Positions 14,638-63,501 of a stretch of DNA of 64,000 nt are shown one piece after another. Each line of letters begins with the position of its first letter. The first letter of the stretch is position 1. This DNA is from Algoriphagus sp. (GTDB taxonomy: Bacteria > Bacteroidota > Bacteroidia > Cytophagales > Cyclobacteriaceae): the NCBI RefSeq assembly GCF_029254265.1, contig NZ_JAQWXX010000025.1:1-64000 (forward strand). The letters run 5' to 3'. The notes beneath the pieces are model-generated. The model saw nothing but the letters and a program-made list of their open reading frames with translations. It ran no database searches and was not told where the DNA came from. Made by a program: the position numbers and the translations under genes.

Positions 14638-16281
14638 TTAATCATTTTCTTTTTTGGGAGTGGGAATAACTACTCCAACTTCTTTGGAAAAACTTGCCCA
14701 CTCAGCCAGCATTTCCTGATATTTTTCTGGATAGGAATCCTTTAAGTCAACTTGCTCCGCGAGATCTGTTTTTAGATTCAACAACTGAAAATTCTCCACT
14801 AGAAATGGTCGCTCAATACTCAGAATTTTCCAATCCCCTTTTCGGATCATCGCATAGCCTCGATGCTCCAATCCAAAGACATAAGTAGAATCGTGAATTG
14901 AATTTGATTTTCCAGTAAGTAAAGGGATGAGCGAATTGCCTAGCAAAGGTTTTACATCTTTTCCATTCCATTGATTAGGGTATTCGACTCCAGCCAATTC
15001 AAAGAAAGTAGGGGCAAGATCTAACAAGGTTAAGAATGAATCATTGATATCTCCTTTATTTTCTACCCCTGGACCAGAGATGATCATTGGTGTGTTGATG
15101 CCGCCTTCTGTGGTAAAGCCTTTGTAATATTTGAAAGGTGAGGATCCAGCTTCAGCCCATTGCGGACCATAAGAAATAAATGAATTTACTTTTCCCATTT
15201 CAGCATATTCCTCGGAATAATTCGCTTGGATGTAAGGGCCATAAAACTCACTGTAATAAAAATCCTCTGCTGCAGCGCCGTTGTCAGACATAAAAACAAT
15301 CAAGGTATTCTCGTATTGCCCAGTTTCTTTTAAATAACTGATCAATCTCCCAATGTTGAAATCCAGATTATCGACCATCCCGGCATAGAGTTCCATCTTT
15401 CGGGCTTCCTTTTTTTGCTCCTCCGGGGAAAGTGAATCCCAAGGTTTGACACCTGGATGAGAAGGAGGCAAAACCGCATTTTCAGGAATCATTCCAGCCT
15501 TTTTCAAACTTTCAAAACGTTTTGCTTTCAAAACCTCATAGCCTTCATCGTAGCGACCTTCGTATTTTTTCCAGTATTTCTCGTCTACCTGCAAAGGCCA
15601 ATGGGGAGAAGTATAAGCTGCAAAAGTGAAGAATGGCTTCCCATCTTCACGGTGGCTGTATATATAAGAGATCAGTTTGTCAGTATAGAAATCCGTGGAA
15701 TAGTCTCCTTCCTCCCAAGTCGTTTCTTTTCCATCTTCGGTGTAAGGCGAAGTGGGCATTTCTGACCATATTCCCTTTGAACTATAATGATTTGCACTGC
15801 TTTCTATTAATGCAAATGACCGTTCAAATCCTTTTGCCTGAGGACCATCTTCTAGCCTATCACCTAAATGCCATTTACCTGCCATGTAGGTATGATATCC
15901 TGCAGAACGAAGTAAATCGGGAAGGGGTATGATTCGATCGGTCAAATGTCCTTCATAACCGGTGACTTTGGTTTGGAGTTGTTGTGAGCCCATGCCTGCG
16001 ATATGGTTATTATTGCCAGACAAAAGCATCGCACGGGTAACAGCACATACCGGAGCAGTATGAAATCGGCTGAATCGGACCCCTTGTCTAGCCAGTTCGT
16101 CTAGGTTTGGCGTGTCTATATCACCACCAAAACTCCCTAGATCCGCATAGCCTAGGTCATCGGCTACGATTAGTAAGATATTGGGTGAAACAGTTTTTTG
16201 AGACTCTTCTATTTGTCTCTTTGAACAGCTAGAGATACAAAAAAGAATAAAAATTATTAGCCCAAAATTTTTTCTATTCAT
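14638..16281 (-). CDS. lipoprotein sulfatase with atypical CAVTR motif
   Basis: Arylsulfatase-family enzyme on a lipoprotein anchor (leader FGLIIFILFCISSC, lipid on Cys19). The metal site ILLIVADDLGYADLG and substrate motif GYHTYMAGKWHLGD are intact. The active-site motif is CAVTR (Cys79), followed by AMLLSG. The family normally has Cys-x-Pro/Ala/Ser-x-Arg so that the cysteine can be oxidised to formylglycine; here the third position is Val. Either maturation tolerates it or activity is altered. The ORF can be read back to a TTG at 16284, but the ATG at 16281 is preferred. It overlaps the stop of the upstream cyclase gene by 8 bases. Substrate unknown. Confidence 0.87.
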   Translation of the reverse strand: MNRKNFGLIIFILFCISSCSKRQIEESQKTVSPNILLIVADDLGYADLGSFGGDIDTPNLDELARQGVRFSRFHTAPVCAVTRAMLLSGNNNHIAGMGSQQLQTKVTGYEGHLTDRIIPLPDLLRSAGYHTYMAGKWHLGDRLEDGPQAKGFERSFALIESSANHYSSKGIWSEMPTSPYTEDGKETTWEEGDYSTDFYTDKLISYIYSHREDGKPFFTFAAYTSPHWPLQVDEKYWKKYEGRYDEGYEVLKAKRFESLKKAGMIPENAVLPPSHPGVKPWDSLSPEEQKKEARKMELYAGMVDNLDFNIGRLISYLKETGQYENTLIVFMSDNGAAAEDFYYSEFYGPYIQANYSEEYAEMGKVNSFISYGPQWAEAGSSPFKYYKGFTTEGGINTPMIISGPGVENKGDINDSFLTLLDLAPTFFELAGVEYPNQWNGKDVKPLLGNSLIPLLTGKSNSIHDSTYVFGLEHRGYAMIRKGDWKILSIERPFLVENFQLLNLKTDLAEQVDLKDSYPEKYQEMLAEWASFSKEVGVVIPTPKKEND

Positions 16282-18193
16282 CAATTTCCATTTTGTATGA
16301 ATCTATATACCACATTTTCATTTCTCCTTTTCCTTTTACAGGTAAGATTCCTCTTTCAGTAAAGGTAAAGTCCGGGTCATCTTTTAGTAGCGAATAGGTC
16401 TTTTCAGAAATATTGATCTGGTTTAATTCGCAATTTGCCTCCATTCGTTGTGCAGTATTTACCGTATCACCCCAGATATCATATTGAAACTTCTTTATAC
16501 CTACAATTCCAGCCACAACTGGCCCAGTGTTGATTCCACAGCGCATATCGAATTTTATTTTCCTTGATATATTAGGATCTGAGTTTCGTTTATCTATAAA
16601 TTTTTTCATCTGAATCGCTGCCAAGGCAACTTCTTTTACTCCAGTTTTGGAGTTAAGTCCTCCTGCAGCCATATAGGCATCCCCGATCGTTTTGATCTTT
16701 TCTAAACCCAGATTGCCGATGATCTCATCAAAGGCTTTGAAGCAAGTATTCAATTCTTTGACAAGTTCCTTTGCGCTGAGCTGTTCTGCTTTCTTGGTGA
16801 AATCTGCAAAATCTGTAAAAATAACGGTCACCTGATCAAAGTCTCTGGCATCTGAACTTCCTTTTGCTTTGAGCTCTTCTGCAACTTCAGCAGGGAGAAT
16901 ATTCAGCAAGAGTTTGTCTGATCTATCCTTTTCTTTGGATAGGGTCTCTTTTGATTTTTTTATAAACTGATATCGAAGGAAAAGTCCAATAGCTAGTACG
17001 AAAAGGAATAAACCAGAAATCATGAAGATGATCTTGCGGCTTCTCTCTACTTCAAGACGTTCGTTGAAAACCAGATCCCGCTCTCTTTTTTCCTGCTCAT
17101 TTTTGATGCTGTCCAGGATCTGTTTTTTCTCGAATTCATAGTTAAGCATCATTTGGGTGATACTTTTTGTATTCGATTCATTCAAGATACTATCCTTGAG
17201 TGAAGTGGCCTTTTTTAAATAAACTAACTCAGCTCGATAATCACCCGTTTTTTCAGCAACCTCCTGAAGTCTTTCATAGGCCATTCGAAGTACTTTTACT
17301 TCGCCTGCTTTTTCAGCATTTTCAAGTGATTTCTCTCCATGATATTTTGCTTTGGAAAGCTGATTGTTCTTTTGATAAAGATTGGCAAGTCGGTTGTGCG
17401 TATAGGCCAGACCACGAGAATAGCCCAGAGAATCGCGAATTCGAAGGGCTTCAAGTAGGGTTTCTTCGGCGAGTTTCAGGTCACCTTTGTTTGCATAGTT
17501 ATTACCCAAATTACTTAAAGCTAAACCTACTGAATACGGGTTTTCAGCCCTTTTGGCATAGTCCAGAGAAAATTTATGGTAGTAAATCGCGGAATCAAGT
17601 GGGCCTGTATGTTCAAAAATAATGGCTAGATTATTATAGCTACTTTGAATATTATCAGGGATTTCCATAGCGAGATCCATTTCAAGAGCTTTCCTTGAAT
17701 GATAAAAGGCCTCTTCATAATCGTGCTGATCGTAGTAAAGCAAACTGAGATTCGAATGGGAAGAAGAAACCCCTGTCAAATTACCTAGGGATTCATAAAT
17801 ATCCATGGCGGCTTGATGGTTTTTTACAGCTTTTTCAACATCTCCAAAACGCGCATATGTGCTAGCCAGAAAGTTATTAGCCCTTGCTTGCTCCACTTTT
17901 AAACCTAGCTTTTCCATTTGAATAATCATCTTCTCGATCAATTCAGTGTCGGATTGGGTAGGGTCTCGTTCTTGAACACTCAAGGCTTTATAAAACTCTG
18001 CTTGGAGTAAAGCAGATTCATCATTGCTTTTGGTTGCTTGTTCGATCGCTTCATCAGCTAATCGAATAGCCTCCTCATAGTTATAATCAGAATAGGCAGA
18101 ATAGGCATTTGAGATTAAGCTATCCAAATTCTGTCCTTTCAAAGAAAAGGAAACACTAAAAAGTAAAATAAATGCAAGTCGGAATTTTGTCAT
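16274..18193 (-). CDS. TPR-adenylate cyclase, copy B
   Basis: A membrane-bound class III nucleotide cyclase (639 residues). A signal peptide (FRLAFILLFSVSFSLKGQ) exports a TPR array (about 25-330). One membrane helix (IIFMISGLFLFVLAIGLFL, about 381-400) leads to the cytoplasmic signalling helix (LLLNILPAEVAEELK) and cyclase domain. Metal-binding aspartates are in FTDFADF and GDAY. The purine-specificity pair is Lys in EKIKTIGD and Asp in YDIWGDTVN, the adenylate rather than guanylate pattern. So an external signal read by the TPRs probably sets cAMP level. I moved the start from TTG at 18199 to ATG at 18193. Highly similar to the gene at 19524-21473; the two are duplicates. Confidence 0.9.
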   Translation of the reverse strand: MTKFRLAFILLFSVSFSLKGQNLDSLISNAYSAYSDYNYEEAIRLADEAIEQATKSNDESALLQAEFYKALSVQERDPTQSDTELIEKMIIQMEKLGLKVEQARANNFLASTYARFGDVEKAVKNHQAAMDIYESLGNLTGVSSSHSNLSLLYYDQHDYEEAFYHSRKALEMDLAMEIPDNIQSSYNNLAIIFEHTGPLDSAIYYHKFSLDYAKRAENPYSVGLALSNLGNNYANKGDLKLAEETLLEALRIRDSLGYSRGLAYTHNRLANLYQKNNQLSKAKYHGEKSLENAEKAGEVKVLRMAYERLQEVAEKTGDYRAELVYLKKATSLKDSILNESNTKSITQMMLNYEFEKKQILDSIKNEQEKRERDLVFNERLEVERSRKIIFMISGLFLFVLAIGLFLRYQFIKKSKETLSKEKDRSDKLLLNILPAEVAEELKAKGSSDARDFDQVTVIFTDFADFTKKAEQLSAKELVKELNTCFKAFDEIIGNLGLEKIKTIGDAYMAAGGLNSKTGVKEVALAAIQMKKFIDKRNSDPNISRKIKFDMRCGINTGPVVAGIVGIKKFQYDIWGDTVNTAQRMEANCELNQINISEKTYSLLKDDPDFTFTERGILPVKGKGEMKMWYIDSYKMEIDE

Positions 18194-18278
18194 AGCCAAA
18201 AAAAACTCATTCTCAGACTTTAAGATAGGAGTTTACATGCATAAAATACAATAAATTGTATTTACTCATGTTCATTGA

Positions 18279-19523: not shown

Positions 19524-21473
19524 TCAGGTCAAAACTCTTGTTTTGGTAGTATCTTGAAATTTTTGCAGCTGGTATTTACTCGATTCCACATACCACATAT
19601 TTAGTAAGCCTTTGCCTTTTACCGGAATAGGACCTCTGGACTCGAATCTAAAATCAGGGTAATTCTTAATCAAATTATAGGTGTTTTCGGAGATGTTGAT
19701 CTTATTCAGCCCGCAGGAGGCTTCCATTCGTTGGGCAGTATTTACAGTATCGCCCCAAATGTCATATTGGAATTTTTTGGAGCCTACAATTCCAGCCACT
19801 AATGGGCCATTATTGATCCCGATTCGCATATCGAATTTGACTTTGGAAGGGATACGTGGATCAAAATTCCGCTTAGTAATGAAATCTTTGATTTTAATGG
19901 CAGCAGAGATTACCTCTATGACTCCAGATTCGTTATGAAGACCGCCTGCAGCTAAATAGGCGTCTCCGATCGTTTTGATTTTTTCCAATCTAAACTCGCC
20001 AATAATCTGATCAAAAGCTTTGAAGCAGATATTCAGCTCAAAGACCAACTCTGTCGCACTGAGGTGCTGGGCCTTTTTTGTAAAATCCGCAAAATCAGTA
20101 AATATGACCGTGACTTCTTCGAAATTTCTAGCCTCGGAGTAACCCTTTTTTTTGAGCTCCTCCGCGACATTTGGAGGAAGAATATTGAGTAATAATTCAT
20201 CGGATCGCTCCTTTTCCTTTTCAATGATTTGACTCGATTTTTTGATAAATCTTGATCTGTGGTATAGGCCGATCGCTATGATCAGAAAAAATATCCCCGA
20301 GATTAAGTACAGCGTTTTCCGGTTTCGCTCGATCCCAAGTAAATCATTGAAGAAAATTTCACGATCATTTTTTTCTTGAAGATTCTTTAAACTATCGATT
20401 AGTTTCTTTTTTTTAAACTCATAATTCAATATTTGTTGCGTCAGCTCCCTTGCTTTGGATTCATTTGTGATACTATCCATCAAAAAAGCCCCTTTTTTCA
20501 TGTAGCCTAGCCCTGCCCGGTAATCGCCCCGAAGCTCTGCTACTTCAGCCAGACGCTCGTAAGCCATTCTCAAGATCTTCACTTCAGCGCTTTTTTCAGC
20601 ATTCTCCAAAGACTTTTTTGCGTGATAGTTTGCCTTATTCAGCTTATGAGCTTTTTGATAGAGGGTAGATAGGCAATTATGTGTGTATGCCAGTCCAAGC
20701 GTATAGCCTAGGGAATCCCGGATGTTCAAAGACTTAATTAATAACTCTTCAGCCAATCCTAAATCCCCTTTATGGGAATGATTATTACCCAGATTATTCA
20801 ACGAAAGACCTATAGCGTAGGGATTATTTAATTCTACTGCTTTTTCCAAGGCTAAGCTATGGTAATAAATTGCCGAATCGATGGGCCCAGTTTGCTCAAA
20901 AATAGTTGCCAAGTTATTGTAGCTAATCTGTATTTGACGGGAGTCTTCGCTGAGCAAATCCATTTCTAAGGATTTTCGCGCATGATAAAATGCATTTGTA
21001 AAATCATACTGATCGTAATACAACATGCTCAGATTAGTATGAATCATTGAAATCCCGCCACGATTATTCATGTCTTGAAAAATATCCCTCGCTTTCAAAT
21101 GGTTTTCGATGGCTTTTTCCACATCTCCAAAGCGACCATACAAGCTGGCTAAAAAATTATAGGCTCGAGCTTCCAATAGATTCAGCTTATTTGATTCCAT
21201 CTCGGGAATCATACTTTCGATTCGCTTCGGATCAAGGCTACTTGGGTTTAACTGCTGGCTTGAAATTTCACGGTAGAATAACGCTTGAATTTCTCCGATT
21301 TTATTACCTGAATTTTTACTTAAAACCAGAGCTTCTTCGGCTAATGAGATACTTTTTTCAAGTTTAAAATTAGAGTACGCTTCGTAGGATGAAGAAAGTA
21401 AACTATCCAAATCCTGACACCAACTAAAAAAAGGGTGGAAAATTAGAAAAACAAGCAGCAGTCTAGGTTTCAT
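19524..21473 (-). CDS. TPR-adenylate cyclase, copy A
   Basis: A 649-residue paralogue of the cyclase at 16274-18193 with the same plan: signal peptide (LLLVFLIFHPFFSWCQ), exported TPR array (about 25-330), one membrane helix (LYLISGIFFLIIAIGLY), signalling helix (LLLNILPPNVAEELKKKG) and class III cyclase domain. The metal aspartates (FTDFADF, GDAY) and adenine-specificity residues (Lys in EKIKTIGD, Asp in YDIWGDTVN) are kept, so it should make cAMP. TPR stretches such as SLENAEK, LRMAYERL and LGLAYTHN are near-identical in the two copies. The C-terminus is about ten residues longer. It follows DUF3500 (197-base gap) and is probably the parental copy because its upstream neighbour is intact. 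Confidence 0.9.
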   Translation of the reverse strand: MKPRLLLVFLIFHPFFSWCQDLDSLLSSSYEAYSNFKLEKSISLAEEALVLSKNSGNKIGEIQALFYREISSQQLNPSSLDPKRIESMIPEMESNKLNLLEARAYNFLASLYGRFGDVEKAIENHLKARDIFQDMNNRGGISMIHTNLSMLYYDQYDFTNAFYHARKSLEMDLLSEDSRQIQISYNNLATIFEQTGPIDSAIYYHSLALEKAVELNNPYAIGLSLNNLGNNHSHKGDLGLAEELLIKSLNIRDSLGYTLGLAYTHNCLSTLYQKAHKLNKANYHAKKSLENAEKSAEVKILRMAYERLAEVAELRGDYRAGLGYMKKGAFLMDSITNESKARELTQQILNYEFKKKKLIDSLKNLQEKNDREIFFNDLLGIERNRKTLYLISGIFFLIIAIGLYHRSRFIKKSSQIIEKEKERSDELLLNILPPNVAEELKKKGYSEARNFEEVTVIFTDFADFTKKAQHLSATELVFELNICFKAFDQIIGEFRLEKIKTIGDAYLAAGGLHNESGVIEVISAAIKIKDFITKRNFDPRIPSKVKFDMRIGINNGPLVAGIVGSKKFQYDIWGDTVNTAQRMEASCGLNKINISENTYNLIKNYPDFRFESRGPIPVKGKGLLNMWYVESSKYQLQKFQDTTKTRVLT

Positions 21474-54968: not shown

Positions 54969-56516
54969 TCACTGTGTATTAGAATCCGCTTTGATCGCAA
55001 AACTGGAAGGAATTGCCCCAGAAGGTGTCTTCGTTACATACACAGCAAATAAGGAATTACTGGCACATGTCCCTTTATTTGGAATCTCTGGAAGTGGAGC
55101 AGCAGCTTCAATTCCACCAAGAATATATCCAGCCAGAACTTTTTCTCCTGCCGCCAAACCACTCAACTTTAAAACACCATTTGCGGTAGCTTTTCCATTG
55201 CTGATTAAAGCTCTATTTCCTATAAATGTGATGCTCGTACCTAATAATCTATTGCCTTGGATAGGCTTGGCATTAATGTATTCAGAATATACCCCATCTG
55301 CCCCCTCTATAAAAGTACTAATATCCGCTACAAATGGAATCCCATCATTTCTTCCTTGAGCTGTTGCCATATTATAAATTGACTTTTGCACGGAATCTTG
55401 AGAGTAATAATAAAGACCAATTCCACCGAACATAGTGCTGTAAATCGATTTATTAGAAGATTCATCATCGTAGATGGAGATTACAGGACACTCGTATTGG
55501 CTAAATTTCTGGTGAACATCTTTCTTGACAACCGGATTTTGTGGTCCTGTGATGTAAATAGGATAATCATATCCACCAATAATTCCCGGAGGAAAAACTC
55601 CTCCTAGTGCAGTAATTCGCTCCATTCCAGTCGTAGGATCAACATCTTCGATAATGTTCCCATCTCTACGATGGAAAGGTCGATCCGGATCTGAGCTCGT
55701 GGTGGCACCATAGCTCAAGATATCCAAAGAACCAGGTTTTAATGTAAACACTCTGATTTCCTCGGTATATTCCTGAGTAAAATCCGTACCTCCAAACGCT
55801 CGATATTGCCCATCAAATCGCTGCCCAAAGACAAGGTAAAATCTGCCATTTAGCTTAGCCAACTCTCCTCCGGTCACTGCAAATCGGTCATCCTTCCCAT
55901 ACTCCATCAACGCTTCAATCTCACTTGCGGAGGCACCATTCTTGATCGCTTGAGTCAAGGGCTCAACTTTGAATCGGATGATGCTCCCGAAGGTTTTCAT
56001 ATCCGAACCATCCGCCTTCCAGCCATAACCACCCACTACATACATTTCATCTGTTTCCAGATCATGATAACCTTGCAAATTATTGGATTGTAACTGCTCA
56101 GAAAGCTCATCCTTCAATCCATTCACGTCAAAACTCCAAAAATCCCCAGAAGCTGGGTCCAAAATATAAAGGAAGTTATTTGCGCTGTCGGGGATGAAAT
56201 TTTTCTCTGGTGCAGGCATAAATGTATGTAAACCTTGCCTTCTTCCTCCGACTACAAGGATTTCTCCAGCTTTATTGACTGCGCTTGTGTAAGACTGTAA
56301 GCCAGGTAATGCAGGCTTATTGATAAAACTCTGCTCTTCGAACTCAATGGTGTAAGGCAATACATTCGGCTGAATATTTGGATCAGTTACAGGCTCTTGC
56401 ATAAACATTTGTACTGAATCATCAGCAGATTCGGAACTTCCAGATCCATCACATGATGCTAGTGCAAGACAAGCTCCTCCAAATAATAGAAAGTACTTTA
56501 ATAATGGATTTTTCAT
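54969..56516 (-). CDS. kelch-like lipoprotein of unknown function
   Basis: A 515-residue lipoprotein (leader LLKYFLLFGGACLALASC, lipid on Cys22) with a Ser/Asp-rich linker. The mature part has kelch-like beta-propeller blades: AGEILVVGGRRQGLHTF, YHDLETDEMYVVGGYGW, LNGRFYLVFGQRFDG and RITALGGVFPPGIIGG. Each has the diglycine-aromatic pattern of kelch motifs. No catalytic site is visible. It overlaps the upstream VioB-N-like gene by 4 bases (ATGA), so the two proteins are made together and likely work together, one in the cytoplasm and one in the membrane or outside; the function is unknown. It ends at a strong terminator. Confidence 0.82.
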   Translation of the reverse strand: MKNPLLKYFLLFGGACLALASCDGSGSSESADDSVQMFMQEPVTDPNIQPNVLPYTIEFEEQSFINKPALPGLQSYTSAVNKAGEILVVGGRRQGLHTFMPAPEKNFIPDSANNFLYILDPASGDFWSFDVNGLKDELSEQLQSNNLQGYHDLETDEMYVVGGYGWKADGSDMKTFGSIIRFKVEPLTQAIKNGASASEIEALMEYGKDDRFAVTGGELAKLNGRFYLVFGQRFDGQYRAFGGTDFTQEYTEEIRVFTLKPGSLDILSYGATTSSDPDRPFHRRDGNIIEDVDPTTGMERITALGGVFPPGIIGGYDYPIYITGPQNPVVKKDVHQKFSQYECPVISIYDDESSNKSIYSTMFGGIGLYYYSQDSVQKSIYNMATAQGRNDGIPFVADISTFIEGADGVYSEYINAKPIQGNRLLGTSITFIGNRALISNGKATANGVLKLSGLAAGEKVLAGYILGGIEAAAPLPEIPNKGTCASNSLFAVYVTKTPSGAIPSSFAIKADSNTQ

Positions 56517-58327
56517 GATGCTTGAGGGTTAGGTCCAGTGGCAGTACCGTCGTGAAGATTTTTAATGTAGTGCAAAACCGTCATGGTTTTTTCTGGAGAC
56601 ATATCCCTCGTAACAGGCATATACCGGGTATCATTGAAATCTCTGCTCAGAAAAAACCCAATCGCTCCATAATTAATCCCCAGTGGCCCTGCCTCACTCG
56701 TGCCGTACATATGATCCCAAGGCGGATTTTTTGCAAAAACTTCGAAGGACTTGAAATCAATTAAGTTGATCTTTTCCGTCATACCTGGAAACAACTTAAC
56801 ATATCCCGCAAAAATCTCCTGAATCTCTGGCCAACTTGGATTCTCGTTTATGGTATAATTTGACCAAACTAAGCAAGAAATCATCGCGCTTTGAGAGACA
56901 CTCACAGGGGCTGTTCCATCTGAATCATAAAGATTAATGAAATATAGCTGACCGTCCAACTGTGGTGTACGATACCCAGGATCCTTTAACACCACAATTG
57001 TGACTGTGGCAAAACCATTTGAATCAGTTGCTGAAACAGAAGCTTCTATGGCTCCAAAAGCTTGAGGAGTATTTCCAGGGTTAGAGGGGGGAACTGTCGC
57101 CCCCGGGGTATTTCCATGGACGCTTACAATATCTACTTTGAGTTGCTTACCAACTAAGGGTTTAGACATTTTGCTGACATATACCTTGGTAGTTGCAATA
57201 TTTCCCGGCTTTCCTGTAAGTCGAATCGGTCTAACTTCTACTTCAATATTCGTTTGTGAAATGTCTTCTTTGAATATTTCAACCGGTCCGATATCAGTCC
57301 TTGACATTTCCAGGCTTAGTGCTGATGAGCCAAGGATATTAATCTGGTCATCGGTCAGAGGAATCTGCACAATATGTGAGTAGGAATTAAAACAGAACTC
57401 TGAATAATCCACATTCCCCAGAGAGATTGGAGCGTCACTGGCTGGCTTAATCCAAGCTGTCAAATCTCCAAGTTGTACGGGAGGACCACCGGCTGTCTGT
57501 CTACAAATCCCGTTAGCCAAGTCAATAATTAGGAGCTTTCTTTCCTGATCCACAGTAAAAGGACAGGTATTAAACATTGGCCAATTCCAAGGGTCGCTTT
57601 TATCCTGAGCTCTTCCGCTAAGCATTCTTACCCCAGGACTATAAAGCGGTTCATTGGCATAAACTGGTCCTAATGAACCTGTGATTCTACCAGTTTGATA
57701 ATTTTTATCCTCAGGTACATTTCTATATCCATCCACTACAAATCTGATGGAAATTAGAAAATTCCCATTTTCTTCTAAGGTTTTGCTTTTCAATTCTGCT
57801 AAAACCGAAGAAACATCATCGCTTGGCCAAGTGGCAACTGGTACCCTAATAATGGATTGATAAACTCCTGAGGCATTCATGTCTCCACCAAAACTATCCA
57901 TTTGATAGTCGGAATCTTCCCAACTTCTTGTAGCCAAAACAGCTACCCACCACAATTGATTGAGCACAGCGGGGTCAATCAATCCGGTCAAGCTTACTCC
58001 TTCAGAAATAGGAATGCTTACTTGCATACCATAAATAGTAGGCACTCCCTGTTGATAAACGTCTATATCTGCAATTTTTGCAGCTGAAGGCTTATCGGTG
58101 GTGATAAAAGGCTGTCCTACAATAGGATCTTGCACCTCTCCATCTTTTCCAATAGCAGAAACCACACTGCATTCCTGAAGCTGAAATCGATGTAGACCTT
58201 TGGGGTTCTGCCAAGGTGAAGGAATGGTATTACTTACTTCGTAATGGGTAGGATCATTGTTTACTGTAGATGGATCGGTAAAAAAACGTCCGTAAAAATT
58301 AATCCTCGGATAGGATAAATAACTCAT
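56513..58327 (-). CDS. protein resembling the N-terminal half of VioB/RebD/StaD
   Basis: A 604-residue protein with no leader. From memory of the family, its start (YLSYPRINFYGRFFTDPSTVNNDP) and its end (YMPVTRDMSPEKTMTVLHYI) match the N-terminal domain of VioB, RebD and StaD, the enzymes that join two indole-pyruvate imines in violacein and indolocarbazole formation. In those proteins a ferritin-like catalytic half follows; here the chain stops after the motif, so the haem/iron half is absent. Middle pieces PIVGQPF, AKIADIDVYQQGVPTIYGMQV and NFLISIRFVVDGYRN are also typical of stand-alone relatives. The role of the half alone is unknown. It is coupled with the kelch-like lipoprotein. Confidence 0.7.
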   Translation of the reverse strand: MSYLSYPRINFYGRFFTDPSTVNNDPTHYEVSNTIPSPWQNPKGLHRFQLQECSVVSAIGKDGEVQDPIVGQPFITTDKPSAAKIADIDVYQQGVPTIYGMQVSIPISEGVSLTGLIDPAVLNQLWWVAVLATRSWEDSDYQMDSFGGDMNASGVYQSIIRVPVATWPSDDVSSVLAELKSKTLEENGNFLISIRFVVDGYRNVPEDKNYQTGRITGSLGPVYANEPLYSPGVRMLSGRAQDKSDPWNWPMFNTCPFTVDQERKLLIIDLANGICRQTAGGPPVQLGDLTAWIKPASDAPISLGNVDYSEFCFNSYSHIVQIPLTDDQINILGSSALSLEMSRTDIGPVEIFKEDISQTNIEVEVRPIRLTGKPGNIATTKVYVSKMSKPLVGKQLKVDIVSVHGNTPGATVPPSNPGNTPQAFGAIEASVSATDSNGFATVTIVVLKDPGYRTPQLDGQLYFINLYDSDGTAPVSVSQSAMISCLVWSNYTINENPSWPEIQEIFAGYVKLFPGMTEKINLIDFKSFEVFAKNPPWDHMYGTSEAGPLGINYGAIGFFLSRDFNDTRYMPVTRDMSPEKTMTVLHYIKNLHDGTATGPNPQAS

Positions 58328-58364
58328 TTTAAATAGGTTTAAAGTGAATAAAATAATTATAAAT

Positions 58365-58388
58365 AAAAACCACTATTTTAGGTAGTGG
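58365..58388 (-). terminator. terminator after the 1703-residue gene
   Basis: On the minus strand CCACTA, a seven-base loop and TAGTGG make a 6-bp stem followed by TTTTTATTT, starting immediately after the stop codon. It separates the large kinase-like gene from the VioB-N-like gene. Confidence 0.65.
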
Positions 58389-58389
58389 A

Positions 58390-61300
58390 TTAAATTTCTG
58401 AATCTATAAAGTACATCTCTACAAAACCTTTATTCTTGACTTTAATCTTGCCTCGTGAGGTGCACATAAACCTATCTTTGATTAACTCATAGGTTTGTCC
58501 ACTAATATTGATTTTGCCTGGTTCGCCGGCTGTCTCCATTCTGGATGCAACATTGACAGTATCTCCCCAGATGTCATATGCAAACTTTTTAATACCTACA
58601 ATTCCCGCTATGACTGGTCCTGTATGAATTCCTATCCGCATACTGATAGCAGGTTTTCCCTCGGAAGTTGTTGATTTCATGTGTTCTCGTATGAACTCAT
58701 TGATCTCAAAGGCTGCTAAAACCATATTTGCAGCATCAAATTCTTTAGTCAAATTCAAGCCTCCCGCACACAAATAGCTATCGCCCACTGTTTTTATTTT
58801 TTCGATTCCATATTTCTCAACGATACGATCAAACTCACAGTAGAAATAATTCAATTCGGAAACCAGCTCCTCTGCGGACAGAATCTCACATAATCCTGAA
58901 AAATTTACAATGTCAGTAAACATTACACTGACATCTTTAAAATGACGGGCTTTTGAAATCCCGTTATTTTTAAGTTCACTGGCTATCTCAGGAGGCAGAA
59001 TATTTAAGATTAATTGCTCGGACTTTTCTTTTTCCTCATTCAACTGCCTCGTCCTAAGCCTAATCTTTTCCTCCATATTTTGATACAAAAGCGCATTTTC
59101 TAAGGAAATCGCCATTTGGCTTGAAAGTATATTTATCAAGTTTAAACGCTCAATCGTGAATGCTCCTTCAATCAAATTATTTTCCAGATAAATGATCCCG
59201 GTTACCTCGCTTTGTTTCATCAAAGGCACAACCATAATGGATTTCATTTTCTGACTGAGGATATATGGATCTTTTCCAAATCCGGCATCTTGGAAAGCAT
59301 TTTCCAAAATCACACTTTCCTTGTTTTTTGCTGAAAAGAGGATTACCTCTTTTGCAATGGCATCAAAGCTCTTGAGTGGCAGGTTTTCAAATAGATTTGG
59401 TTCAAGATTTTTGGTACATGATTCTGACTGAACCAAAAATTCATTATCGCTTTTCAACAAGAGAACCATTCGCTGAGCCCCGGCATTTTCGATGATTATT
59501 TTCATCAAAGTTGTGAGCAGGTCCTTTAGCTTGATCTCCTTGGAAATTGCTTCGGATGATTTCATTACTGATTTCAAATCCAAATCTTGATTTGAGAACT
59601 TTTGAGATCCTTTCTTATCCTCCGCTCTTTCTACAAACCTGAATTCCATTTGAGAAAAATTGCTAGAACTACTCTTCGATACCAATAGCTCCACAATACC
59701 CTTAGCCCCTAACAAATCATAGAGATAAACTGCATCACTCAAATGAATTGCAGCAATTTTCTTTTTGCCATCATTCAAGTGCAACTCGAATAGCCGTCGA
59801 TTGACAAGTGCTTGTACTTGGAGATATTCATATTTCTCCGCCGCGTCCAAAGCTGAATAATATTCTGATTGTGCCTTTTCAAAATCGCCTGAAACCAAGG
59901 CTAACTCCGCAGAAAGAAGACGGTATTTATGCTCGAAATTAGATGGACTGTTTTGGCTGTATTTTTTAAATTTCTTAGCAATACTTGAAAGTTCTCTTTT
60001 CCATTTCAATTTCTCTATCCGGCCGGAATTTGGAATCAAAGCGGCCAAAATCATTCCCTTGTAGAAATAATGCTCCGCAGTATGAAGCATCCCCGGAGAA
60101 TCTTTTAGATAAATATCCGAGGTAATAGAAACCTCATAAGCTTGATCAAATTCTTCCCAGAGATAGAGGGACTGCATTTTATTGATGTAATAGAAATGAG
60201 CAAAATGCCTTGAATTAAAACTATCCAGCTTTTTTACATACTCATTTTCATCAAATCCTTCGTCAGAAAAGGAATCTGATGAATTGGTTTTACCCTGAAG
60301 GTTTTTAATAGATTGAGTTACTGCACTCATAGTCAGCACTGCTTCTTCAATATGGAACCTTCGCAAAAAGTCTAAATGGGAATTGCTGGATTCTAGAATC
60401 TCTTCAAACTGAACGCCCCTCATGAAATAACTCTGAACTATCGCGCAGCTGGCACAACTTGCATGAAAAAGATCACCAACTTCCAATCCTGACTCATAAG
60501 CATTCAACCAATATTCTTCCATCTCCTTAGCTGGCTGTTTCCAAGGAATAGCAAAATATCCGGTCACAAAATTTGCTTCAGCCCTAGCACCGTGATTTTG
60601 GTACTTTTCAAGCAAGCCTAAAGTGAGTTGTCCAATTTTGTAACCTGTCGTTCGAAAACCAAGAATTCCACTGTGAAAAACAGGTCCAAAACCGAGAAAT
60701 CCGATAAATCCACCGTCTGTATTCCCATGCTTAAGGCATAAGTTAACCATGATGGCGCAAACCAAAACACAAAGCTCTGGCTTGATTTGAAAAGCCGATT
60801 GACCTGCCGCAGCCATTAAAAGAATCGCTGTTTTGAGCTTTTCATCTGTCATTTCGGGAAGATCAATCAATTCTCCAACATCCCTTTTGCCCATCATGGC
60901 TTTATATTTCAAAAACTCAAAAGCCAAACTTGGAGGAGAAAAACTTGCCGGAATATTAACTCCCAATTCCGAGGTTACTTCCCTACAAGCCTTATACGCT
61001 GCTTCAAAATCTCTAATGTTATTATAGTACTGTATTTTTCGGATGGTAACTTTTGCTTTATCAATTACATCTTCTGTGTTTTTTAGAGCCTCGTCAAAAA
61101 AGTGAACTACTTTGCTATTATTTCCAGCAAGGTGCTCCAGTTCAGCTCGTTGTAAATTCAAATTTCGATGGGTCTCTTTTGAGACAACCAACTTTTTTTC
61201 CTGTACCAATTCCATAGCATTCCTGATATAGATCAGTCCAGATTCATAGGCGTTTGCATGCTTAGCCCGAATACTCGCAGAGATGTTCAGCTCTATTAGT

Positions 61301-63501
61301 TTTTGCAGAAGGTTTTCATTATCAATTAACCTTTGAGCAAAATTTAAATGGTCTGTCAGAATATAGATTGAGTCAGAATGCTCAATATTGGAAAGCTTTG
61401 AGATAATACTTTTGCCAATTTCCAATCGAATCTTTTGCTTCTCAATTTCAGAAAGCAAACCCAAGGCTGCCTGTTGGATTTTATCATGTTGAAAGCCATA
61501 ATCGTCATCACCCGAGCGTTCTTTTGTATTAAGGTTCTCGATGATACAAAGCTTTTCAGAGAGCTTTAGCTGCATATCTAGCTCCCCCTCACTTATTTCC
61601 ACCAAGCCACTTAAAATTTCTATAGAAAATGTATTTCCAATACAGGAGGCGTATTTCAAAGTAGTCTGAACTTCTTCAGGAAGTCTGAAAAAAAGCTCCG
61701 ACATCAGGTCTATGACATTGTCACTGATACTGACACGATGGGCTTTCTCTGCACTATAAGTCCAATGAAGTGTGTTTTGGGAAAGATGTATTACCCCACT
61801 TTCATAAAGCGTAAGAAGACATTGCCTGATGAAAAATGGATTCCCCAGCGTTTTTCTAAAAACGATTTTTGCCAATTCTTCTCCACTTTTCTTGGGGATC
61901 GAAAGGGAGTCAGCAATGATTTCTTCTACAGAATCCTGATCCAAAGGGGCTAAAGCAAAAAGAGTACTTCCCACTCCCTGAGATTGTAACCTGTCCAACA
62001 TCATCATCAAAGGATGAGATGGGGAAACCTCATTTTCCCGATATGCACAAATGATCAGCAAATGCTTCAAACTTGAATCCAGAAGCGTATTCTCCAGCCA
62101 TCTTCTGGTCGTAGTATCTAACCATTGCAGATCATCCAAGAAAATACACAACGGATAATCTTCGCTTGCAAAAGATCGAATAAAACTGTTGAATACCTGA
62201 TCAAACCGGTTTTTAGACTCATTCATGGGAAGAGTCGGTACTTCAGGTTGAGGTCCGATCAGCAGTTCTAAATCGGGCATTATATCAATAATCAATTGCC
62301 CGGAATGCCCAACAGCTTTCAAAATGGAGTTTTTCCAATATTCCTTCTGCTCTTCACTTCGAATAAGAACCTGATTAATCAAATCATTCAACGCAAGCAA
62401 TAAAGAGCTTAAAGGAGGGTTCTTTTTATATTGTTCAAACTTCCCTGAAATGAAAAATCCTCCTCCTAAATCAATGTATTTCTGAAATTCCCGGACAAAA
62501 CTAGATTTACCAACTCCGGAATAACCGCTAACTAGCGCGAGTTCAGCTCGCTCATTTTTTATCCTTTGAAAAAGCTCATTCATCTGACCTATCTCCTCAT
62601 CTCTACCATAGATTTTTGAGGAAATCTGAAATTGATCTAAGCGATCCTGAGTACCTAAGGTAAAATCGTTGATCTCATTGATATCCAGAAGTCGATCCAA
62701 ACACTGCTGTAAGTCATTCAGCAATCCTGAACAACTTTGATATCTTTCAGAAGTGTTTTTCTTCAAAAGTTTTAAGACAATTTTGCTGACAATCTCTGGA
62801 ATTTGATCCCGGAACTTATTTGGTGAATCCGGGACTAATGCCAAGTGAGCATGCATTAACTCCATCGGATCAGAAAAATGAAACATAGTTCTACCCGTGA
62901 GCATTTCATACAAAACGGCCCCTATCGAATACAAGTCGGTTCGATGATCTATCGGCCTGTTCATCCGGCCCGTTTGCTCTGGAGAAATGTAATGAAGACC
63001 TAGTTCCAGTGCCTCACTTACATTTGAATAATTTAAATCCCTACCCCGCTCTATCGCATAATCAAAACCCCAAACCTTGACCCCTCCAGTCTTATCCACA
63101 ATAATATTTGAAGGGTTGATATTTTTATGAATGATGTTTTTACTGTGGAGATAGTTCACTGCTTTAGTGATCTCCATCGCAATCTTCAAGAAGATAATTA
63201 AGTCAAGCTTTCCCCTTTTTAAATAATCAGATAGAGGCTCCCCTGAAATATCCTCATTGACCAGAATGGGCAAGTTTTCAAGATTTTCTAACCCTATAGG
63301 TTGAACAATATTTGGATGGGAAAGCTTAGATAATATGGAATATTCCTGCTTTAAATGGTTTAAATCACGGAATGTAGGATATGCCGATCTAAAAGTCTGA
63401 ATAGTAACCGCTTTCGAATCTTCGATGCGATTAGCTTTATAGACTATATATCTTGAGTTCTCCCGAACTTTATCCAGTATGTTAAATCTTAAATCAGGCA
63501 T
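58390..63501 (-). CDS. pseudokinase - AAA ATPase - GAF - adenylate cyclase fusion
   Basis: A 1703-residue cytoplasmic sensor. Residues 8-270 have a Ser/Thr protein-kinase fold, but all three catalytic residues are lost: Gln35 for the ATP-site Lys, Asn127 in HKN for the catalytic Asp, Gly145 in GFD for the DFG Asp. It is thus a predicted pseudokinase. Next come an AAA-type ATPase (Walker A SGYSGVGKSS, Walker B CIFLDDLQWLD) and a long helical region (about 550-1290, TPR-like). A GAF domain (about 1340-1490) precedes a signalling helix (LILNILPPEIASELK) and a class III cyclase (FTDIVNF, GDSY; adenine-type Lys in EKIKTVGD and Asp in YDIWGDTVN). It should make cAMP in response to ligands or partners. 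The gene stands alone. Confidence 0.9.
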   Translation of the reverse strand: MPDLRFNILDKVRENSRYIVYKANRIEDSKAVTIQTFRSAYPTFRDLNHLKQEYSILSKLSHPNIVQPIGLENLENLPILVNEDISGEPLSDYLKRGKLDLIIFLKIAMEITKAVNYLHSKNIIHKNINPSNIIVDKTGGVKVWGFDYAIERGRDLNYSNVSEALELGLHYISPEQTGRMNRPIDHRTDLYSIGAVLYEMLTGRTMFHFSDPMELMHAHLALVPDSPNKFRDQIPEIVSKIVLKLLKKNTSERYQSCSGLLNDLQQCLDRLLDINEINDFTLGTQDRLDQFQISSKIYGRDEEIGQMNELFQRIKNERAELALVSGYSGVGKSSFVREFQKYIDLGGGFFISGKFEQYKKNPPLSSLLLALNDLINQVLIRSEEQKEYWKNSILKAVGHSGQLIIDIMPDLELLIGPQPEVPTLPMNESKNRFDQVFNSFIRSFASEDYPLCIFLDDLQWLDTTTRRWLENTLLDSSLKHLLIICAYRENEVSPSHPLMMMLDRLQSQGVGSTLFALAPLDQDSVEEIIADSLSIPKKSGEELAKIVFRKTLGNPFFIRQCLLTLYESGVIHLSQNTLHWTYSAEKAHRVSISDNVIDLMSELFFRLPEEVQTTLKYASCIGNTFSIEILSGLVEISEGELDMQLKLSEKLCIIENLNTKERSGDDDYGFQHDKIQQAALGLLSEIEKQKIRLEIGKSIISKLSNIEHSDSIYILTDHLNFAQRLIDNENLLQKLIELNISASIRAKHANAYESGLIYIRNAMELVQEKKLVVSKETHRNLNLQRAELEHLAGNNSKVVHFFDEALKNTEDVIDKAKVTIRKIQYYNNIRDFEAAYKACREVTSELGVNIPASFSPPSLAFEFLKYKAMMGKRDVGELIDLPEMTDEKLKTAILLMAAAGQSAFQIKPELCVLVCAIMVNLCLKHGNTDGGFIGFLGFGPVFHSGILGFRTTGYKIGQLTLGLLEKYQNHGARAEANFVTGYFAIPWKQPAKEMEEYWLNAYESGLEVGDLFHASCASCAIVQSYFMRGVQFEEILESSNSHLDFLRRFHIEEAVLTMSAVTQSIKNLQGKTNSSDSFSDEGFDENEYVKKLDSFNSRHFAHFYYINKMQSLYLWEEFDQAYEVSITSDIYLKDSPGMLHTAEHYFYKGMILAALIPNSGRIEKLKWKRELSSIAKKFKKYSQNSPSNFEHKYRLLSAELALVSGDFEKAQSEYYSALDAAEKYEYLQVQALVNRRLFELHLNDGKKKIAAIHLSDAVYLYDLLGAKGIVELLVSKSSSSNFSQMEFRFVERAEDKKGSQKFSNQDLDLKSVMKSSEAISKEIKLKDLLTTLMKIIIENAGAQRMVLLLKSDNEFLVQSESCTKNLEPNLFENLPLKSFDAIAKEVILFSAKNKESVILENAFQDAGFGKDPYILSQKMKSIMVVPLMKQSEVTGIIYLENNLIEGAFTIERLNLINILSSQMAISLENALLYQNMEEKIRLRTRQLNEEKEKSEQLILNILPPEIASELKNNGISKARHFKDVSVMFTDIVNFSGLCEILSAEELVSELNYFYCEFDRIVEKYGIEKIKTVGDSYLCAGGLNLTKEFDAANMVLAAFEINEFIREHMKSTTSEGKPAISMRIGIHTGPVIAGIVGIKKFAYDIWGDTVNVASRMETAGEPGKINISGQTYELIKDRFMCTSRGKIKVKNKGFVEMYFIDSEI

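Follow-up and report, generated by a model that had tools for sequence, protein, structure and literature searches.

Organisation of the PKAC locus

The window, the whole stretch of 64,000 nucleotides of Algoriphagus DNA analysed here, carries on its minus strand a complete open reading frame (positions 58390 to 63501), with an ATG start and no internal stops, for a protein of 1703 amino acids that we name PKAC. Its parts follow one another in the order pseudokinase, STAND-like ATPase, TPR-like stretch, GAF domain and class III cyclase, and all their coordinates below refer to this strand. The kinase-fold domain (residues 20-255, positions 62737 to 63444) is matched by Pfam Pkinase with 109.4 bits, against a cutoff of 31.7. 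It is followed by the ATPase core (residues 297-484, positions 62050 to 62613; Pfam AAA_16), with a Walker A motif GYSGVGKS and a Walker B motif CIFLDDL, by a CHK1-type TPR stretch at residues 1086-1227 that falls below the Pfam cutoff, and by a Pfam GAF domain (residues 1325-1467, positions 59101 to 59529). The class III cyclase domain (residues 1518-1700, positions 58402 to 58950; Pfam Guanylate_cyc) completes the protein, and alignment locates in it the motifs FTDIVNF, EKIKTVGDSY and AYDIWGDTVNVASRM. In a Kyte-Doolittle scan with a 19-residue window there is one borderline peak, of 1.68 at residue 905, which is barely above the usual transmembrane threshold of 1.6. The linker between the GAF and cyclase domains (residues 1476-1517, positions 58951 to 59076), identified by eye, is likely helical and resembles the S-helix, an element known from the junction of sensor and output domains (PMC1592074). 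Orthologs of PKAC in named Algoriphagus records share 60-96% identity with it, that of A. marinus being the closest, and one more shares 48%.

Directly after the PKAC stop codon a weak terminator-like hairpin and T run can be made out by eye (positions 58361 to 58388, minus strand). Two linked genes lie downstream on the same strand: ORF604 (positions 56513 to 58327) and ORF515 (positions 54969 to 56516), which overlaps ORF604 by 4 bases and has, by eye, a lipoprotein-like start. ORF604 has no match in Pfam or NCBIfam and a single, meaningless match in the PDB (E 0.53), and neither it nor ORF515 is matched by PADLOC. Elsewhere in the window there are two further class III cyclases with TPR repeats, at positions 16274-18199 and 19524-21473, both also on the minus strand.

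Altered residues of the kinase domain

Alignment with relatives places Gln35 (codon at positions 63397 to 63399) at the position of the β3 lysine of the VAIK motif, Asn127 (63121 to 63123) at that of the HRD/HKD catalytic aspartate, and Gly145 at that of the DFG aspartate, within the run Trp144-Gly145-Phe146-Asp147 (63061 to 63072) that spans the DFG-1 and DFG positions. The αC glutamate is retained as Glu53 (63343 to 63345), a position occupied by Glu in 131 of 135 relatives, and Asn132 aligns with the metal-binding asparagine. The preliminary description had reported just these three replacements together with a kept Glu53, and both points stand; its retained Asn132 is true of PKAC but is not fixed across the type (11 Asn, 1 His and 1 Ser among the 13 proteins). 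The triple loss is common to all 13 distinct window-type proteins of more than 1500 amino acids, PKAC included, and to one fragment of 367 amino acids, and is therefore not a sequencing error.

The alignment at the DFG position requires some care. When a profile of 18 relatives is compared with Staphylococcus aureus PknB (4eqm), the HRD and DFG motifs align without gaps, and the nearest canonical relatives are likewise gap-free here, with IIDFNI against VWGFDY in PKAC. A single-sequence phmmer alignment of PKAC with 4eqm, in contrast, introduces a gap in the DFG region and would set Asp147 on the DFG aspartate. We do not follow this placement, because the canonical relatives align gap-free and because Glu occupies position 147 in 5 of the 16 clade rows. 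An intact Lys, Asp or DFG elsewhere in the domain, a possibility that the preliminary description had raised against its own reading, is rejected on the strength of the family and PknB profile alignments. Nor does inspection of the family alignment by eye offer a convincing candidate in the N-lobe for a displaced, WNK-like lysine.

An AF2 model of residues 1-300 has the kinase fold (pLDDT 88.8, pTM 0.89), and its top Foldseek match is Mycobacterium tuberculosis PknB (5u94, TMt 0.89). PKAC is thus a pseudokinase by the sequence definition, under which a kinase fold has lost at least one of the VAIK Lys, HRD Asp and DFG Asp. The clade-specific residues that are fixed in 13 of 13 proteins include Tyr18, Gln35, Phe37, Trp144 and Gly145. 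Trp144, at the DFG-1 position, recurs in only 1 of 75 canonical family members, and Tyr18, at the third position of the Gly-loop, in 3 of 75. These two bulky residues would fit a filled nucleotide pocket and, together with Gln35, they make ATP binding by PKAC appear less likely. A normal Gly-rich loop is also missing in canonical members of the family. To speak of lost activity may overstate the case for PKAC, given that activity of the canonical relatives is itself an assumption.

The ATPase and cyclase regions

Both Walker motifs are identical in all 13 window-type proteins, and the P-loop that marks a STAND ATPase is present. A model of residues 285-899 (pLDDT 84.0, pTM 0.77) has as its best match in the PDB the STAND-TPR protein 6mfv (E 1.1e-10), followed by Apaf-1; the match to 6mfv is a loose one, with TM scores of 0.47 and 0.45 and an rmsd of 9.4. 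For the cyclase domain the top-scoring PDB match is adenylate cyclase 9 (AC9). Asp1530, Lys1570, Asp1574, Asp1643, Asn1650 and Arg1654, which we take from the mammalian cyclases to be the two metal-binding aspartates, the adenine-selecting Lys and Asp, and the Asn and Arg, are all present in PKAC, giving it six of the six residues of a class III adenylate cyclase, and they are all present in 12 of the 13 proteins of the type. In L046, from a metagenome-derived genome (G157:C26), residue 1643 is Asn and an in-frame stop cuts the cyclase short just ahead of its end. With the catalytic residues of both enzymes intact, the sequence upholds the original description of PKAC as a pseudokinase fused to an ATPase and an adenylate cyclase.

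Distribution and history of the losses

Overlapping samples of 118, 72, 395 and 245 genomes, together with named records, yielded 139 distinct kinase-ATPase open reading frames in a census centred on one family of Bacteroidota; as four, three and six candidates per genome were scored in the samples of 118, 395 and 245, respectively, the family has at least this many members. The tail counts cover 120 of the 139, with 16 truncated and 3 gapped rows set aside. Tails were labelled by motifs and by BLAST against three seeds, and Pfam confirmed all five labels that were checked. One row labelled as histidine kinase (L216, 1186 amino acids) lacks the Walker motifs, sits on a very long branch and may not belong to the family.

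Among these 120 relatives the full Lys/Asp/Asp triad is present in 75 and the catalytic Asp is missing in 45. The earlier expectation that relatives normally carry HKD and DFG is therefore right for the former and wrong for the latter, whose share is close to the figure of about 40% pseudokinases given in the main text of a review of the CP1 kinases (PMC12599244). By type of tail, the catalytic Asp is missing in 38 of 71 cyclase-tailed, 5 of 37 histidine-kinase-tailed, 2 of 10 phosphatase-tailed and 0 of 2 GGDEF-tailed proteins. The raw contrast between cyclase-tailed and other-tailed proteins (38 of 71 against 7 of 49) might be taken to tie the pseudokinase to a cyclase tail, but the rows are related to one another, and a controlled comparison on well supported branches gives 4 independent pairs and a median p of 0.5 in a sign test, which cannot reach 0.05 with fewer than six pairs. 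We therefore do not claim such a link.

Two trees were built from the stretch that joins kinase to tail: a quick one of all 120 proteins, and a careful one under a mixture model, limited to 44 of the proteins, a subset chosen to hold two degenerate groups. In both, the clade of PKAC (Q/N/G at the three positions) lies beside a pair with K/N/G, comprising L053, with a cyclase tail, and L051, with a histidine-kinase ATPase tail (Pfam was run on both), and these two groups lie beside a canonical K/D/D clade of L012, L201 and L202; support for these neighbouring groups is 100/100 in the careful tree. Since the sister pair keeps the Lys without either Asp and the next relatives are canonical, the loss looks stepwise. 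By parsimony, the changes to Asn127 and Gly145 would have preceded that to Gln35, and the tail would have changed separately. L051 shares Asn127 and Gly145 while carrying a histidine-kinase ATPase tail, so that loss of the kinase residues is not tied to a cyclase output.

The canonical L012, L201 and L202 have a SpoIIE-type phosphatase tail (by Pfam on L012), and kinase and phosphatase thus occur within one protein. Over the family as a whole, the state of the catalytic Asp changes 10 times on the quick tree and 2 times in the careful subset. A second, separate dead-kinase group is also cyclase-tailed (L031, L033, L034, L174-L178, L183, L186, L200 and L208-L212); it has HLNLNP, SLG at the DFG position and His at the metal Asn, and keeps the β3 Lys.

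Selection on the kinase domain

Among the window-type proteins the kinase domain has a dN/dS of 0.030 (4 usable pairs of 78), compared with 0.035 for the ATPase core, 0.046 for the ATPase-C/TPR region, 0.060 for the GAF domain and 0.051 for the cyclase (3-5 pairs each); these values are to be compared within the protein only, two canonical control clades having yielded 0 and 1 usable pairs. Amino-acid divergence of the kinase domain is 0.257, and that of the other regions spans 0.212-0.306. Purifying selection acts on the kinase domain to a degree comparable with that on the remaining regions, which suggests constraint without catalysis. Of the regions in the second dead-kinase clade, it is the kinase domain that shows the highest dN/dS, at 0.076 (2 pairs).

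Purifying selection, taken with the shared triple loss, argues that the domain of PKAC is not decaying. Drift and assembly error are ruled out as causes of the triple loss by the concordance of 13 of 13 distinct proteins, and the preliminary judgement that losing all three residues is unlike drift is confirmed.

A variable site between uvrA and pnuC

Across 72 genomes of the genus, PKAC and the close orthologs of ORF604 (identity at least 64%) and ORF515 (at least 59%) share one and the same set of 12 genomes and occur in no other; in one (G164) the PKAC-type gene is split across two contigs. More distant homologs occur in the genus at 8 places for ORF604 (31-32% identity) and 10 for ORF515 (28-34%). 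In a sample of 240 genomes of the family, close ORF604 orthologs are confined to 3 genomes, all of them among the genus's 12. UvrA was found in 67 of the 72 genomes, and in 12 of 60 uvrA neighbourhoods the cyclase gene adjoins uvrA. In 47 of the other 48, pnuC and a nadR-like gene lie no more than 4 kb upstream of uvrA and matches to the cyclase or ORF604 are absent; the remaining one is cut off by the edge of its contig. Where the site is occupied, its pnuC side is present in the window and in all 11 named Q/N/G loci that have flanking sequence, and ORF604 and ORF515 are absent from the DNA examined at the three K/N/G loci.

On a UvrA tree the presence of PKAC changes 9 times, a count that depends on a neighbour gene which may itself have moved. 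The genome that carries L046 is 94.3% identical to the window in UvrA and 88.7% in ORF604, but only 62.5% in the cyclase protein, in which no domain exceeds 71%. A cassette of PKAC, ORF604 and ORF515 that was acquired, lost and in part exchanged at a single site would fit this pattern. A shared function of the three genes can only be inferred, because physical linkage alone could explain their joint loss. Tentatively, and with considerable doubt, one may go further and picture them as a single exchangeable signalling cassette, in which a STAND receptor-like cAMP switch uses the dead kinase as its recognition domain and has its own output genes, the whole being gained, lost or swapped between strains at the fixed uvrA-pnuC site.

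Distant relatives of ORF604 occur on 8 plasmid records; in the 4 that were opened, the next gene is annotated as a ferritin-like protein in each case, and ebo genes then follow in 2 of the 4. One such plasmid relative has a tryptophan halogenase and a LodA-type oxidase in its vicinity. A VioB-like role is one candidate for ORF604. A defence system was considered and rejected: 41 PADLOC families match PKAC, and among the best 25 of these 41 the best-matching stretch is the kinase domain, a few extending slightly beyond it.

Discussion

On the most likely reading, PKAC is a STAND-like signalling ATPase, probably cytosolic, that makes cAMP, and its kinase domain, which would no longer phosphorylate, has been retained in folded form for a regulatory or docking role. 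A partner or ligand would be received by the pseudokinase together with the TPR-like stretch and the GAF domain; the core of the ATPase would change its nucleotide state and self-associate; and the helical linker could then bring two cyclase domains together into an active dimer. The preliminary proposal of an allosteric sensor for cAMP output is borne out in part, in the lost kinase residues, the intact catalytic residues of ATPase and cyclase and the lasting conservation; the sensing itself and its effect on cAMP are predictions. A direct action of the pseudokinase on the cyclase would not be specific, because the histidine-kinase-tailed sister L051 shares the dead kinase.

Could the kinase domain nevertheless be an atypical catalyst, with an unusual mode of nucleotide binding, that moves phosphate, AMP or some other group by means of the acidic residue at 147 and others? 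An Asp or Glu is found there in 16 of 16 clade rows, and the phmmer alignment to 4eqm sets Asp147 on the DFG aspartate. There are precedents, in that CASK and WNK have lost motifs and still are active (PMC4718504) and SelO and SidJ have other activities (PMC12599244). PKAC, however, has none of the three residues Lys, HRD Asp and DFG Asp, Asn132 is variable, and Trp144 and Tyr18 are bulky. Asp or Glu at 147 is also present in 22 of 75 canonical members and is therefore not specific, and CASK and WNK, unlike PKAC, retain the HRD Asp. We consider such catalysis distinctly unlikely.

A domain surviving as a mere structural remnant, which stabilises the ATPase core and takes no part in sensing or regulation, would agree with the frequency of degenerate kinases in the family, on several types of tail. 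Against such a role stand purifying selection comparable to that on the catalytic domains and residues fixed specifically in this clade, some of them at pocket positions, and we regard it as rather improbable. Action in trans, with an active paralog as partner, is very unlikely. The window genome does have a canonical K/D/D, cyclase-tailed paralog (L002, G000:C82:629-5578), but a canonical member accompanies PKAC in only 6 of the 12 genomes; 1 has only another degenerate member and 5 have no other profile match. A retained regulatory or docking domain is thus the reading that we prefer.

Bacterial pseudokinases have been little studied (PMC12599244), and PKAC offers one with a measurable output, cAMP. 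Its nearest relatives display the steps from a full triad, through the loss of two Asp, to the loss of all three residues, and the genus includes genomes with and without PKAC, ORF604 and ORF515.

How does PKAC compare with known systems? Eukaryotic receptor guanylyl cyclases likewise carry a dead kinase domain ahead of their class III cyclase, and ATP binds to and regulates the kinase homology domains of GC-A, GC-B, GC-C and GC-E (PMC9672810). In PKAC, in contrast, more than 1000 residues (the STAND-like ATPase, TPR-like helices and GAF domain) separate kinase from cyclase, and the Lys/Asp pair of the cyclase is of the adenylate type, not that of a receptor guanylyl cyclase. The likeness is one of working and not of shared architecture. 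Dead kinases of eukaryotic guanylyl cyclases and bacterial kinase-like sequences without the Asp both appear in PMC1262709. The TOMM system of NCBIfam TIGR03903 is a kinase/cyclase fusion by name; its best stretch on PKAC covers the ATPase part (residues 295-769) and reaches 154.5 bits against a cutoff of 705.75, which places PKAC outside it. The cyanobacterial cbSTKIII or HstK dual kinases resemble PKAC in their N-terminal kinase and GAF domain and have a histidine-kinase output (PMC2176072); all cbSTKIII are termed 'KD' kinases in that survey, whereas PKAC has a cyclase output and has lost the VAIK, HKD and DFG residues.

Closest are the CP1 bacterial Ser/Thr kinases, in which, as in PKAC, a predicted ATPase is joined to the kinase domain; GAF-type or PAS domains are frequent additions, and the motifs have degraded in various ways (PMC12599244). 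All of their pseudokinases are linked to a COG3899 ATPase, and the Leptospira examples have the motifs KILR/HNQ/WLG and VLIK/HKS/DFS (PMC12599244). Their hosts are mainly cyanobacteria and proteobacteria, whereas PKAC belongs to Bacteroidota; the words 'cyclase' and 'Bacteroid' do not occur in the main text of the CP1 review, figures and supplements aside. PKAC differs further in having a class III cyclase as output and three losses that are fixed in one clade. Its ATPase is matched by Pfam AAA_16 and has a STAND-like model, and its hydropathy shows the one borderline peak where CP1 kinases have no transmembrane region; we treat PKAC as a candidate member of CP1. The titles and opening lines of abstracts among the matches listed in the open-licence literature hold no description of a pseudokinase-ATPase-cyclase protein. 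Fusions of a dead kinase with such an ATPase are thus of a kind already known, and what PKAC adds is a version with a cyclase, accompanied by two neighbour genes that travel with it.
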